From the NCBI GenBank assembly GCA_016187925.1, contig JACPIS010000004.1:1-64000 (forward strand): a stretch of DNA of 64,000 nt, written 5' to 3'. Positions 48,430-52,815 of this stretch are shown here, in pieces. The stretch's first letter is position 1. The number at the start of each line of letters is the position of its first letter. The position numbers and the translations under genes are program-made. A model generated the notes under the pieces. That model did not search any database and had not been told where the DNA came from. It was given only the letters and a program-made list of their open reading frames with translations. Source of the DNA: Opitutia bacterium (GTDB taxonomy: Bacteria; Verrucomicrobiota; Verrucomicrobiia; Opitutales; Opitutaceae).

Positions 48430-50949
48430 CTACGTCTCCTGCCGCAGCACCTCGAGCGGCGGATGGCCGCTCACCCCGCGGTTGGCGAGCAACCCGGTGA
48501 CGATGGTCAGCGCCGTCACCGCCGCGACCGTCGCCAGCAGCCACGAACCCGGCGGCACCGCGGAGACCTTGAAGAGGAATTTTGCCAGCAGGCCGTTCGC
48601 CGCTACGGCGAGTCCCCCGCCCGTCGCCGCCGCGAGCAGGCCGAGCACCGCGTATTCCGCGAGCATGATCTGCCGCAACTGCCGGCGCTGCGCGCCGAGC
48701 GTGCGCAGCAACACCGCCTCGCGCACCCGCTGGTGCCGGCCCATCAGCACCGCGCTCGCCAGCACGACCACGCCGGTGATGACCGTGAAGCTGGCCAGAA
48801 ACGAGATCGCCCACGCGATCTTCGTGAAAATCCCGTCCAGCAGCCGCACGACGAAGCCGAGGTCGATGGCCGAGATGTTCGGCATCTCCTTCGCCACCGC
48901 GCGCTGCAGCCGCGCCGCTTCGTCCGCGCTCCGGGCCCGCGCCGCGGCCGCGAACGTCGCCGGCGCCGCGTCGAGCGGGCCCTGCGGGAACACGAAGAAG
49001 AAATTCGTCTGCATGCGCTGCCACTCGACCTGCCGGATGCTTCCGACGAACGCCTTGACGGTCACGCCCTGCACGTTGAATTCCAGTTCGTCGCCGAGTT
49101 TCACCTGGAGATCCTTCGCGAGGCTGCTCTCGATCGACACCGGCACGCGCTCCGCGCCGGCGGGCATCGTGCCCCCGAAGCGGCCCTCGGTCACCTTCTC
49201 GGCGTCGTCGAGGATGGCGCGGTAGGTCGAGCGATACTCGCGCAGCAGCGCCCACGCCGGCAGCGGGTTGTCCTTGTCCGCCGCGAGCTCCTCCGCCGTG
49301 CGCCCTTTCAGTGCGCTGAGTCGCATCGTGATGATGGGCGACGTCTTGGCCAGCGGCACACCCTCGCGCCGCGCGATGGCGTCGAGCCGGTCGATCTGGT
49401 CCGCCTGCACATCGAAGAACATCAGGTTGGGCCGGTCGCCCTCGCCCATGCCCTGGATTTTTTCCAGCAGCGACGCGCGCGTCAGCGCCAGCGTGAGGAG
49501 CATGAAGGTGCCGAGGCCGAGCGACATCATGAGCAGCAGTGTGCGGTTGTTCGGCCGGTGGACGTTCGCCACCCCTTGCCGCCACGTGTAGGGCAGCCAG
49601 TCCGTCCGCGTGCGCCGCGCCAGCCAGATGATGGCCTCCGCGACGCCCGCGAGCACCGCGAAGCTGGCCACCATCGCGAGGCTGAAGGCGAGGCCCAGCC
49701 GCCAGCTGGACATCTGCAACGTGCCGATGCCCCACATCGCCACGCCGATGGCGCCGTAGATGGCGTAGCGCAACGGATCGGGCTTGCTGTCGCCCTCGTC
49801 GAAGCCCGAGCGCAGCACGTTCAGCGGCGCCACCCGGCGGATTTCCAGCAGCGGCAGGAGCGTGAACAGCACGCAAATCCCCAGACCCGCACCGAGACCG
49901 GTCAGAATGGCCGGCCACGAAACGGCGAAACCCAGGTTATACGGCACATAATCCCGCAGCACAACCGGCAGCAACACCTGCAGCAGCAATCCGAGCCCGA
50001 CACCGAGGACGCTGCCCGCCAAGCCGAGGCCCAACCCTTGCGCCAGATAGATGGCGAAACTCGTCCGCGCGCTGGCCCCGAGGCAACGCAGCACCGCCAC
50101 GGTGGCGAGCCGCTGGCGGATGAACACGTGCATCGCGCTCGCCACGCCGACGGCTCCAAGAAAAAGCGCCAGAAACCCGACGAGGCTGATGAACGAAAAC
50201 AGGTTCTTCATCGCGTCGCCCAGCTGCTCCTTGCGCTCGTCGGCCGTGGTGAAGCGCAGCCGCTCGCTGCGCAACTCCGCACTCAGCGTCTTCTCCACCG
50301 CGCGCGCATCGGTGCCCGCCGGCAGTTTCAGGTAGGCGCTGTGCTGCGAGAGGCTGCCCTTCCGCAGCAGGCCCGTCGCCTGCAGCGCCGCCATCGACAC
50401 CTGCACGCGCGGCGCGAACAGCGAGGTGAAAGGAGATTGGCCCGGATATTGTTTCAGCGCGCCGATCACGGTGAACTTCGACGAACCGAGCGTGATCTCG
50501 CTCCCGACGGCCAGGCCGGCCTGGGTCAGCGCCGCCTCCTCCACGATTGCCGTGTTGGGTTCGGCGAGGCGGGCAAACGCATCGGCGGGGGCGGTCTCGA
50601 CCTCGCCGTAAAAGGGAAAGCCGCCCTCCACGGCCGTGAGCTGCACGAGCCGGCGCGGGTCGCCGCCGAACGTCGCCATGGTGCTGGTGGCGGTGCCCAG
50701 CGCCAGCTCGCCGCCGGTGGCGCGCAGCCGGGCAAGTGCCTTTTCGGAGAACGTCTGCCGGGCCGTCGCGCTCAGATCGGCACCGAGCAGGCCCTTGGCC
50801 TGGCTGTCGATGGCGCCGCGCAGGTTGTCGCCCAGCGCACCGATGCCCGTGAGCGCGGCCACGCCGAGCACGATGGACAGCGAGTAGAGCAGCAGCCGGC
50901 GCCGGCTCGCCCGCGTATCCCGCCACGCCATTTTCAGGATGAAACTCAT
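48430..50949 (-). CDS. ybbP: YbbP-like ABC transporter permease (two FtsX domains)
   Basis: This 839-residue permease has about ten membrane helices in two halves with large extracytoplasmic domains. It starts MSFILKMAWRDTRASRRRLLLY. The FtsX motifs appear near VFIRQRLATVAVLRCLGASA and RHQRVREAVLLRTLGAQRR. The layout matches E. coli YbbP, partner of the YbbA ATPase. That ATPase gene is encoded just upstream on the same strand (51438-52124), but a GxxExxY gene with inverted repeats is inserted between them, only 12 nt before this ATG. Confidence 0.9.
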   Translation of the reverse strand: MSFILKMAWRDTRASRRRLLLYSLSIVLGVAALTGIGALGDNLRGAIDSQAKGLLGADLSATARQTFSEKALARLRATGGELALGTATSTMATFGGDPRRLVQLTAVEGGFPFYGEVETAPADAFARLAEPNTAIVEEAALTQAGLAVGSEITLGSSKFTVIGALKQYPGQSPFTSLFAPRVQVSMAALQATGLLRKGSLSQHSAYLKLPAGTDARAVEKTLSAELRSERLRFTTADERKEQLGDAMKNLFSFISLVGFLALFLGAVGVASAMHVFIRQRLATVAVLRCLGASARTSFAIYLAQGLGLGLAGSVLGVGLGLLLQVLLPVVLRDYVPYNLGFAVSWPAILTGLGAGLGICVLFTLLPLLEIRRVAPLNVLRSGFDEGDSKPDPLRYAIYGAIGVAMWGIGTLQMSSWRLGLAFSLAMVASFAVLAGVAEAIIWLARRTRTDWLPYTWRQGVANVHRPNNRTLLLMMSLGLGTFMLLTLALTRASLLEKIQGMGEGDRPNLMFFDVQADQIDRLDAIARREGVPLAKTSPIITMRLSALKGRTAEELAADKDNPLPAWALLREYRSTYRAILDDAEKVTEGRFGGTMPAGAERVPVSIESSLAKDLQVKLGDELEFNVQGVTVKAFVGSIRQVEWQRMQTNFFFVFPQGPLDAAPATFAAAARARSADEAARLQRAVAKEMPNISAIDLGFVVRLLDGIFTKIAWAISFLASFTVITGVVVLASAVLMGRHQRVREAVLLRTLGAQRRQLRQIMLAEYAVLGLLAAATGGGLAVAANGLLAKFLFKVSAVPPGSWLLATVAAVTALTIVTGLLANRGVSGHPPLEVLRQET

Positions 50950-50961
50950 GAGGGAGTATCG

Positions 50962-51404
50962 CCCACGAAACACACGAAAGGACACGAAAGCGGGGCGTTC
51001 ATCGCACGATCCTTTCCCATTCGAGCTTCGGATGATGTCCGAAGTTCACCAGCAGCGCCAGGCGATGCCCCGATGCCGCGAGGTAGTTCAGCACCTGGGC
51101 GCGGTGTTCATCCACCAGTGCAGAGACTGCCTTGATCTCCAGAATAATCCCTCCGTAGCAGACAAAATCGGCTTTGTACGTCTGCTTGAGCGAGCGCCCC
51201 TTGTAGGACAATGGAAGCGGTTTTTGGCCCTCGAAAGGTATGCCCTGCAGGGCCAGCTCCAGTTCCAGACACTCCTGAAATACCGCTTCTAAAAACCCGC
51301 ACCCCTTGTCCCGGTAGACCTCGAAGCACGCCCCGACGATCTTGTAGCACTCCTCGGCATAAACCACGTCTTTCATTTTCGTGTCCTTTCGTGTGGTTCG
51401 TGGG
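50962..51404 (-). mobile_element. 443-bp GxxExxY unit bounded by 28-bp inverted repeats
   Basis: The arms 50962-50989 and 51377-51404 are inverted copies with 27 of 28 positions equal; the core is ACACGAAAGGACACGAAA. Between them is just one gene (50999-51376). The right arm touches its start codon and the left arm begins 9 nt past its stop. A further related tract, GTGGTTTCGTGTATTTCGTG, lies outside the right arm at about 51409-51428. No target duplication is seen. The insert separates ybbA from ybbP. It is visibly more AT-rich than both neighbours. Confidence 0.7.
50999..51376 (-). CDS. GxxExxY protein (PD-(D/E)XK nuclease-like)
   Basis: This 125-residue protein has the signature GCGFLEAVFQECLELEL and the nuclease-like core YKADFVCYGGIILEIKAV, where Asp, Glu and Lys are placed as in the PD-(D/E)XK fold (PF13366-type). 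Its function is not established. The ATG at 51374-51376 is directly preceded by the inverted repeat, so its ribosome site would lie inside the repeat. The gene interrupts a conserved ybbA-ybbP operon on the same strand. Confidence 0.88.
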   Translation of the reverse strand: MKDVVYAEECYKIVGACFEVYRDKGCGFLEAVFQECLELELALQGIPFEGQKPLPLSYKGRSLKQTYKADFVCYGGIILEIKAVSALVDEHRAQVLNYLAASGHRLALLVNFGHHPKLEWERIVR

Positions 51405-51437
51405 CCCGTGGTTTCGTGTATTTCGTGGTGACCAAAA

Positions 51438-52124
51438 TCAGGTGCGCTCGTCGGCGACGACGGCGCCGGTGCGCAGGCGGATGATGCGCTGCGTGCGGCG
51501 CGCGAGCTCGAGGTCGTGCGTCACGAGCACGAGCGTGGTGCCGCGCTCGCGGTTGAGGCCGAAGATGAGGTCCACCATCGCGTGCGCCGTGTCGCCGTCG
51601 AGGTTGCCGGTCGGCTCGTCGCAGAAGAGGATGCGGGGGCGGTTGATGAAGGCGCGGGCCAGCGCCACGCGCTGCTGCTCGCCGCCGGAGAGCTTGACGG
51701 GATAATGGTCGAGCCGGTTGCCGAGGCCGACGCGCTCCAACAGCGCCCGTGCCTCGGGCTCCCGGCCGGTCTCGCCGCGGAGTTCGAGCGGCACGAGCAC
51801 GTTTTCGAGCGCGGTCAGCGTGGGCACGAGCTGGAAGTTCTGAAAAACGAAGCCGACCGACTCGTTGCGCACGCGGGCGCGGCCGTCCTCGTCGAGTCCG
51901 CCGATCTCGCGTCCGGCGAGCTGCACGGTGCCGCCGCTGGGCCGGTCGAGGCCGGCACAGAGGCCGAGCAGCGTCGTCTTGCCGCTGCCGGACGGGCCCA
52001 CGATGGCGCAGGTCGCACCGGCTTCGACGGCGAAGGTCACCTCGTGCAGGACGGTCAGCGGCCCGGCCGCCGTGGCATATGTCTTGGTCAGGCGCTCGAC
52101 TTTTAGGATGGCTTCGACAGACAT
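51438..52124 (-). CDS. ybbA: YbbA-like ABC transporter ATP-binding protein
   Basis: This 228-residue ATPase has Walker A GPSGSGKTT, Q-loop FVFQNFQLVP, signature LSGGEQQRVALARAFI, Walker [13 protein letters not shown] and H-loop VLVTHDLELA. As in E. coli, it is divergent from tesA and should pair with the YbbP-like permease. The ATG at 52122-52124 gives MSVEAILKVERLTKTY; earlier in-frame starts overlap the tesA promoter. Confidence 0.92.
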   Translation of the reverse strand: MSVEAILKVERLTKTYATAAGPLTVLHEVTFAVEAGATCAIVGPSGSGKTTLLGLCAGLDRPSGGTVQLAGREIGGLDEDGRARVRNESVGFVFQNFQLVPTLTALENVLVPLELRGETGREPEARALLERVGLGNRLDHYPVKLSGGEQQRVALARAFINRPRILFCDEPTGNLDGDTAHAMVDLIFGLNRERGTTLVLVTHDLELARRTQRIIRLRTGAVVADERT

Positions 52125-52209
52125 GAGGGAAGGTTTAAAATGCAGACCGGGTTGATTAAGAACCAATTTCACTCGAACGGCAAAGAACATCGCTGAACGG
52201 CCCGACCCC

Positions 52210-52815
52210 ATGATGCGCGCGCTTCTCCTTTTTTGTCTGCTGGCCCTCACTTCCGGGGCGGCCGAGCGGCGCACGCTCGTGTTTTTCGGCGACAGCCTGA
52301 CCGCCGGCTATGGTCTCGATCCGGACGACGCCTTTCCGGCCGTGATCCGGCGGAAGATCGACGCGTCCGGGAAACCGTGGCGCGTGGTCAACGCCGGCCT
52401 CAGCGGAGAGACCACCGCCGGCGGCCGGCGCCGCATCGATTGGATCCTGCGGCAGCACGTCGACCTGCTCGTCCTCGAACTGGGCGCCAACGACGGCTTG
52501 CGCGGCATCCCCCTGACCGAGACGCGCGCCAACCTCCAGGCGATGATCGACCGCATCCACGCGGCCAACCCGGGCGTAACCATCGTGCTCGCCGGCATGC
52601 AAATCCCCACCAACATGGGCCCCGACTACACGCGGGACTTCTCCCGGATATTCCCCGAGCTGGCGGAGCTGAATCACCTGCCGCTGATCCCGTTCCTGCT
52701 CGACGGCGTCGGCGGCGTCCCCGAGTTGAATCAGGCCGACGGCATTCATCCCACGGTTGAAGGACACCGGGTCGTAGCCGATAATGTGTGGAAGGTACTG
52801 TCGCCCCTTCTATGA
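52210..52815 (+). CDS. tesA: TesA-type SGNH arylesterase / lysophospholipase
   Basis: This 201-residue enzyme has a signal peptide (about 1-18). The SGNH blocks are all present: block I FFGDSLTAGYG with nucleophile S29, the Gly of NAGLSGETTAGG, block III GANDG, and block V DGIHP with D177 and H180. It hydrolyses thioesters, esters or lysophospholipids in the periplasm. Divergent from ybbA across 85 bp, as in E. coli. Its stop overlaps the next gene's ATG. Confidence 0.94.
   Translation: MMRALLLFCLLALTSGAAERRTLVFFGDSLTAGYGLDPDDAFPAVIRRKIDASGKPWRVVNAGLSGETTAGGRRRIDWILRQHVDLLVLELGANDGLRGIPLTETRANLQAMIDRIHAANPGVTIVLAGMQIPTNMGPDYTRDFSRIFPELAELNHLPLIPFLLDGVGGVPELNQADGIHPTVEGHRVVADNVWKVLSPLL

Follow-up and report, generated by a model that had tools for sequence, protein, structure and literature searches.

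A GxxExxY gene between inverted triple-box arms in an Opitutia bacterium, and the hairpins of related make-up scattered through genomes that carry such genes

The locus, its protein and its junction

The window is the whole stretch of DNA that was analysed, 64,000 nucleotides from an Opitutia bacterium. Within it, one GxxExxY gene lies between two transporter genes and has an inverted arm on either side. The neighbours carry FtsX/MacB and ABC-transporter domains by profile search; the names ybbP and ybbA are taken over from a first-pass annotation. The features, in order of coordinates, are as follows.

48430..50949, minus strand: ybbP-like FtsX/MacB permease gene, downstream neighbour
50961..50989, plus strand: distal arm, 3′ of the gene, with three CACGAAA boxes (50964-50970, 50973-50979, 50983-50989)
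50999..51376, minus strand: GxxExxY gene for a predicted nuclease of 125 amino acids (TIGR04256 / PF13366 PDDEXK_3)
51377..51405, minus strand: proximal arm, 5′ of the gene, with three boxes (51377-51383, 51387-51393, 51396-51402, the last of which is CACGAAC)
51406..51427, minus strand: outer extension of the proximal arm, with two more CACGAAA boxes (51412-51418, 51421-51427)
51428..51437, minus strand: TTTTGGTCAC, between the ybbA stop and the outer boxes
51438..52274, minus strand: ybbA-like ABC ATPase gene, upstream neighbour (open reading frame as listed; the start is possibly further in)

The arms are 29 nucleotides each, inverted and identical at 28 of 29 positions, so that the near-perfect repeats first recorded at 27 of 28 positions are borne out. 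Each arm is made of three CACGAAA-type boxes with spacers of 2-3 nucleotides, and an 18-mer core of the arms occurs twice in the window against 0.02 occurrences expected. The box triplets, and the two further boxes outside the right arm (51412-51427), go beyond the first-pass annotation. Its placement of the arms holds: the proximal arm directly adjoins the ATG of the gene (51376), and a gap of 9 nucleotides separates the stop codon from the distal arm. The proximal arm includes AAGGA, which could act as the ribosome-binding site of the gene. The gene was also correctly described as richer in AT than its neighbours, with a GC content of 56.3% against 68.9% and 68.7% in the flanking kilobases; a value as low is found in 4.0% of 378-nucleotide windows.

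A YYGGTCAC motif is present 5′ of the arm at nine GxxExxY genes that belong to the window's genus and occupy several junctions (51428-51437 in the window, and L010, L012, L026, L053, L060, L061, L076 and L078). A tenth match, L049, falls in a coding start. The motif was found downstream of the gene in none of 113 loci.

The assignment of the protein to the GxxExxY family is confirmed by TIGR04256 (E 1.3e-40, 138.4 bits against a cut-off of 35) and PF13366 (E 4.7e-40, 137 bits against 22). By its AlphaFold2 model (pLDDT 92.6, pTM 0.85), the protein is a minimal PD-(D/E)XK core and a predicted nuclease, with a predicted active site of E30, D70, E80 and K82, plus Q94/Y98. Among 121 family members, E30 and D70 are each kept in 120, E/D80, K82 and Q94 in all 121, and Y98 in 114. 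The active site looks to be under selection, since the catalytic residues are kept in 120-121 of the 121 proteins.

Sequence search against solved structures gave no match at E 1. By fold, the best match is 4ic1, SSO0001 (E 1.5e-4, Z 10.2, 100 residues, rmsd 4.3), which we take to be a Cas4. The remaining fold matches are middling (Z of at most 7.6) and include RecB-family nucleases and Hjc resolvases, with MGME1 at 7.1 and AddAB at 6.7. The likeness to SSO0001, MGME1 and AddAB extends to the fold, the E-D-ExK active site and the QxxxY motif, which presumably marks the Cas4/RecB nuclease group. The GxxExxY protein differs in being much smaller and in lying between its own arms. Cas4 proteins have four conserved cysteines for an Fe-S cluster, whereas this cluster is not conserved in 42 GxxExxY sequences, where C36 is the sole nearly invariant cysteine column.

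A search with the start of ybbP matched 44 of 57 genomes, and the best 30 junctions, the window's included, were read. The two neighbours had been described as normally adjacent, and in seven of the 30 they do meet in a 4-nucleotide ATGA overlap with no insert; one of the seven is G010, which belongs to the window's genus and whose YbbP is nearest to that of the window. An intact GxxExxY gene occupies the junction in 14 of the 30, the window among them. The first-pass annotation had named genes at this site without repeats as a result that would speak against its reading; box arms were seen on both sides in 14/14 intact loci (by eye). At the other junctions, G001 has a truncated GxxExxY gene, G005 and G028 keep the arms with gene remnants, in G017 two arms of a different class stand without a gene, G029 has one remnant, and G018, G024, G040 and G056 short or unrelated spacers. 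In G001 (L303), a deletion appears to span the gene into the right arm, and a short identical stretch is common to both. The arm code at the junction differs by species (CACGAAA, CACGGAA or CGCGAAT), both arms having changed together. As a sequence pattern, the junction fits long retention of the GxxExxY gene.

Box grammar and protein clade

The arms follow a simple grammar: three copies of a 7-mer, C-R-C-N-R-A-N, at a spacing fixed by class. The window's own genome has four GxxExxY genes and four arm types, CACGAAA, CACAGAG/CACGGAG (irregular, L010), CACTAAT and CGCGGAT. The flanks of 113 gene loci of the window's order, in which the genes detected outnumber these 113, were read. In 85 of the 113, the inverted alignment of the two flanks scores higher than the 99% level of shuffled flanks, against 6% of mismatched pairs, which upholds the idea that the arms go with the gene. 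A further 81 loci, including a single viral one, came from scanning other phyla and viral contigs; the cross-phylum scan started from G-class proteins alone, with the best 80 of its 586 matches kept. Of these 81, 53 exceed the shuffle level, yet 19% of mismatched pairs also do so because one class dominates.

Chains of at least three C-R-C-N-R-A-N boxes stand on both sides of the gene in 76 of 194 loci and in 0/194 shuffled ones. Where each side has at least two boxes (117 loci), the two arms of a locus agree at the four variable positions at 0.88, against 0.51 with permuted partners and 0.65 when partners are permuted within the position-7 class. Two GxxExxY genes of G086 (L415, L417) are flanked instead by ACAGGAT repeats (ATCCTGTTAATCCTGTC-like on the other strand), outside this grammar. 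Repeated arm copies at spacings of ~112 and 174 nucleotides lie beside GxxExxY genes at G039:C73:118563-120206 and G056:C6:58214-59101, respectively.

The box code was placed on a tree of 121 proteins from loci with at least four recognised boxes, a tree of few columns and many open forks. Left off it are 73 of the 194 loci, in which at most three boxes were recognised; other arm types, e.g., CCAGGAA or ACAGGAGGNAACGGAG, are seen in several of these. Box position 7 changes 5 times on this tree against a shuffled mean of 38. Positions 2, 4, 5 and the spacer change 19, 22, 18 and 24 times against 31, 45, 31 and 53.5; in each case 0/200 shuffles were as low. Code and spacing follow the protein clade, with positions 2, 4, 5 and the spacer varying more than position 7. 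The G class spans Chloroflexota, Acidobacteriota, Bacteroidota, Pseudomonadota, Planctomycetota, Cyanobacteriota and others, while the A and T classes on the tree come from the window's order only, the scan being G-class-seeded.

Because the pairing of gene and arms has been long conserved and the code matches the clade, the GxxExxY protein very probably recognises the boxes physically. The code-clade match alone would be no proof of binding, since gene and element are co-inherited. Residues 21-22, before the GxxExxY motif, fit box base 7 in 117 of the 121 proteins: H21 goes with G in 79/81, N22 with T in 26/26, and Y-R/K with A in 12/12. The exceptions are L058 (HK, T), L118 (HY, A), L099 (AR, T) and L119 (LH, T). 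This residue code is kept as a prediction only, as it involves just 2-3 independent switches, which cannot reach significance.

One reading of a nuclease with a code would be defence or self-marking, in which the code would guide the enzyme's cutting of DNA, with the arms serving as self sites or decoys. The fold nearest to SSO0001 and the presence of several codes per genome point that way. The gene stands alone between two transporter genes, however, and no family of PADLOC-DB 2.0.0 matches the protein at E 0.01. This makes a defence role highly improbable.

Scattered arms and the turnover of their sites

Arms also occur away from any gene. A strict arm pattern, AAC followed by three boxes, occurs 1518 times in 57 genomes, while a reversed control pattern occurs 0 to 2 times per genome. 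Such arms are found in 40/40 gene-bearing and 2/17 gene-free genomes (Fisher 6e-12; Spearman 0.77; kinship ignored). In a phylum set of 145 genomes, which has 11 in common with the first, they are found in 58/69 gene-bearing and 8/76 gene-free genomes (Fisher 4e-20; kinship ignored), with G129, one of the 69, scoring below the family cut-off. Only 51 of the 1611 arms in this set lie in gene-free genomes. The number per genome ranges from 0 to 250; the strict pattern is missing from 11 of the 69 gene-bearing genomes, and G163 and G188 have 26 and 13 arms without a detected GxxExxY gene. Scatter independent of such genes was the outcome that the first-pass annotation had set against its own reading. 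The repeat is indeed scattered, but mostly in genomes that bear the gene, G163 and G188 being the exceptions.

Of 46 cases of neighbouring arms less than 300 nucleotides apart, 43 are inverted pairs with AAC on the outer side (11 genomes, gene-flanking pairs excluded, by eye). In eight such hairpin pairs of G001, the loops are 18-112 nucleotides long and apparently unrelated to each other. Spacing goes with the box in the scattered arms as well: it is 3,3 in 92/92 CACGAAT and 18/18 CACTAAT arms, and 2,2 in 25/27 CACGAAA and 38/45 CACGGAT arms.

Scattered arms tend to carry the code of a resident gene. Box and spacer match exactly in 115 of 267 arms against a shuffled mean of 60.8, with 3/5000 shuffles as high. 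The effect is weaker with one mismatch allowed (157 against 123.6; 211/5000 as high). This test covers nine genomes with gene-flanking arms removed, gene types set by hand, unknown-type genes omitted and kinship ignored; G004 gave 22 of its 26 arms, and G009 and G012 were left out. In three genomes with a gene of the CACGAAT code, arms of that code make up 26/43, 11/18 and 32/53, against 8/25, 5/14, 1/23, 0/22, 1/58 and 8/11 in six genomes without such a gene. Three of these six, G008, G002 and G010, go against a strict code rule, with 8, 5 and 8 CACGAAT arms and no detected matching gene in genomes that are 79, 73 and 86% complete.

Two CACGAAA hairpins of the window's own genome (L002, C10:71044-71200; L008, C41:81536-81774) enclose a second palindrome, TGTCATTCTGAGCGAAGCG..., of a different repeat family. 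GIY-YIG genes were considered as possible owners of the TGTCATTCTGAGCG hairpin, for which the own genome gives no support (0/4 genes).

Eight hairpin sites of G001 were set beside their counterparts in relatives, between one and six per site and 31 stretches in total. Arms are absent from site L319 in G003, G006 and G008, where the genes abut, and from site L331 in G003, G008 and G012. The same code is present at site L320 in G001, G003 and G007, and another code may be found at the same place: CACAGAT in G005 at L320, and CACTAAT in G000 and G003 at L322. Unrelated hairpins occupy some of the compared sites in other species. A gene-bearing site (L096-type) is filled in G001, G003 and G007 (474-475 nucleotides), whereas G008 has 25 armless nucleotides there and G006 a box hairpin nested in a period-7 hairpin. 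Between G001 and G007, across eight sites chosen for intact boxes in G001 and not in G007, boxes differ at 6/329 positions (1.8%), spacers at 5/141, loops at 43/259 (16.6%) and flanks at 166/1642; all six box differences lie in L319 and L329. Turnover is mainly in geneless arm pairs, and the boxes are meanwhile conserved. The sequences give no sign that a whole donor hairpin was copied, as no target duplications were seen and the loops within one genome are unrelated.

Other repeats are met at such sites. L343 (G005:C131:6080-6400) has a REP-like palindrome, CTGTAGGAGCGGCTTTACGCCGCG, at the intergenic site of a G001 CACGAAT hairpin. At L369 (G006:C1:227500-230700), a CRC-box hairpin lies in the loop of a period-7 TTGGAGC hairpin, and sister species have a GxxExxY element there.

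Most of the scattered hairpins sampled lie within runs of genes on one strand: among 20 in G001, 18 are between co-directional genes, 1 is convergent and 1 divergent, gene orientation here being a guess based on open frames and on GC at third positions. This makes transcription terminators unlikely, and so does the position of the arms between genes that overlap by 4 nucleotides in relatives. The main competing view is a host-useful regulatory or processing system in operons. The hairpins would act in RNA or DNA between co-transcribed genes (processing, stability, coupling) and the GxxExxY protein would bind or cut them, with little or no mobility. The co-directional settings suit such a role, as do the strong conservation of the boxes, the intact catalytic residues and the keeping of the gene at a junction whose genes overlap in relatives. 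It fits poorly with sister species that lack the arms or have a different code at the same sites, with genes that decay while arms remain (G001, G005, G028), with a box hairpin nested in an unrelated one, and with arm numbers that run from none to 250 per genome. On balance, the regulatory view is rather unlikely.

S23 genes of the window's order (TIGR02436, L177-L206) also lie between inverted arms, mostly tandem period-7 repeats of GTAGCGA, GTTGAGA, TAGGCTG and CAGGAGT types. The arm scores of 17 of the 30 S23 loci are above 15.5, the 95% level of mismatched pairs (hand count; two loci end at contig ends). As owners of the CRC boxes, the S23 four-helix genes are unsupported, their own arms being mostly period-7 and of other sequence.

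The hairpins might instead be spread by other machinery, such as a Y1/RAYT-type transposase or replication slippage, with the GxxExxY genes as passengers between arms. Period-7 arms and the REP-like palindrome do occupy the same intergenic sites, and box arms also surround other inserts. Against this, the arm code tracks both the clade and the presence of GxxExxY genes. The S23 family, the other multicopy family examined, is a poorer match to the arms. There are 86 arms in G016 and 35 in G055, neither of which has an S23 gene, and none in G052 despite its two S23 genes, though G033 (one S23 gene, no GxxExxY gene) has 2 arms. A passenger role is very unlikely.

Mobility, known systems and a proposed mechanism

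In the first-pass annotation, the gene with its arms was seen as a minimal mobile or homing unit capable of moving on its own. The element has an IS-like outline, sites exist with and without the gene-bearing form, many phyla have it, and G043 has two near-identical neighbouring GxxExxY genes ~2.3 kb apart. With MITEs, minimal insertion sequences and free-standing homing endonucleases, GxxExxY elements have in common terminal inverted repeats, geneless derivatives and sites without the element. They differ in that their arms are internally repetitive and class-coded, that no target duplication was seen, and that no recent copies were among those compared except the one neighbouring pair.

The comparison of copies took in 20 gene loci (8/11 of G169, 6/12 of G086, 5/9 of G133 and 1/9 of G017). 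None of these is a recent copy, the longest match within a genome being 74% over 362 nucleotides. Inspection by eye of the ybbA-ybbP junction, the L096-type site and the compared hairpin sites showed no target duplication, although species divergence limits the view there, and no transposition event or intermediate was seen in the compared loci and sites. At E 1e-5, relatives of the window protein were detected on 8 plasmids out of 72,556, and none turned up among 50,697 phage records. A one-gene transposon, which was the first reading, loses standing because the intact gene recurs at a single junction (14 of the 30 read), the paralogs compared are diverged and target duplications were not seen. 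The claim of self-movement is weakly supported overall, and an autonomous unit is quite unlikely.

The closest functional parallel is the system of RAYT (TnpA-REP) genes with REP/REPIN sequences, as presented in excerpts of PMC3116915 and PMC2817692. In both, inverted repeats flank the gene and are also scattered as hairpin doublets, and the classes of gene correspond to those of the repeats. The enzyme there is a tyrosine transposase of the IS200/IS605 group, and here a PD-(D/E)XK protein. Each REP has a GT(A/G)G-type head and a palindrome in the excerpts of PMC2817692, whereas the arms have AAC and three C-R-C-N-R-A-N boxes. The GxxExxY system also has up to 12 genes per genome, four codes in the window's own genome, and many phyla. 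By analogy, it would work like RAYT-REPIN without being a member, as enzyme and repeats are unrelated.

The 23S rRNA intervening sequences offer a looser comparison. In excerpts of PMC4990558, these sit in rRNA and are excised by RNase III, and the Coxiella S23 ORF has tandem heptamers (GACAGAT) upstream. One small gene in a short element is common to both systems, and the Coxiella heptamers, as far as those excerpts go, are comparable to the period-7 S23 arms seen here. However, the S23 protein is a helical bundle, its boxes have period 7 and another sequence, and the window element lies between transporter genes and encodes a GxxExxY protein.

The explanation considered best, given about an even chance of being right, is that of a Cas4/RecB-like nuclease with its own population of triple-box arms, a convergent analogue of RAYT-REPIN. 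It builds on what can be read in the sequences, namely the arms, their grammar, the code-clade match, the co-occurrence, the sites with and without arms, the conservation of the boxes and the intact active site. The GxxExxY protein would be a small PD-(D/E)XK nuclease able to recognise triple-box arms of its own class. The gene would be a long-kept "master" between two arms, and the geneless hairpins a dispersed population dependent on the nuclease in trans for spread or upkeep. In the enzymatic step, the nuclease would cut hairpin or cruciform arms, and repair from another arm would then seed or rewrite hairpins elsewhere. Whether this step takes place is judged to be evenly balanced. Of the conceivable routes, such cutting and repair is the most economical, and it would also explain why both arms change together. 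The S23 parallel suggests a point against the enzymatic part of this explanation: since S23 genes, which do not encode nucleases, have parallel arms, nuclease activity may not drive the arm architecture.

A wider proposal is more tentative and, taken as a whole, somewhat doubtful. It holds that residues 21-22 specify base 7, that the nuclease seeds or rewrites intergenic hairpins by cutting and templated repair with arms changing code in concert, that this forms a cross-phylum class of nuclease and repeat, and that S23 with its period-7 arms is a second, independent branch.

In the open-licence PMC literature, no paper on the role of GxxExxY proteins was found. The repeat strings tried are in no paper searched in that literature, which does not imply their absence from print. 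The evidence points to an undescribed partnership of an enzyme with its own genomic hairpin family. GxxExxY proteins are widespread, and the link to the arms gives them a partner and a testable code, in which the box may be predictable from the nuclease sequence. If the explanation is true, hairpin populations with a dedicated enzyme would have at least two origins, one in a transposase and one in a Cas4/RecB-like nuclease. A small family of DNA-reading enzymes with many natural codes would then be open to study.
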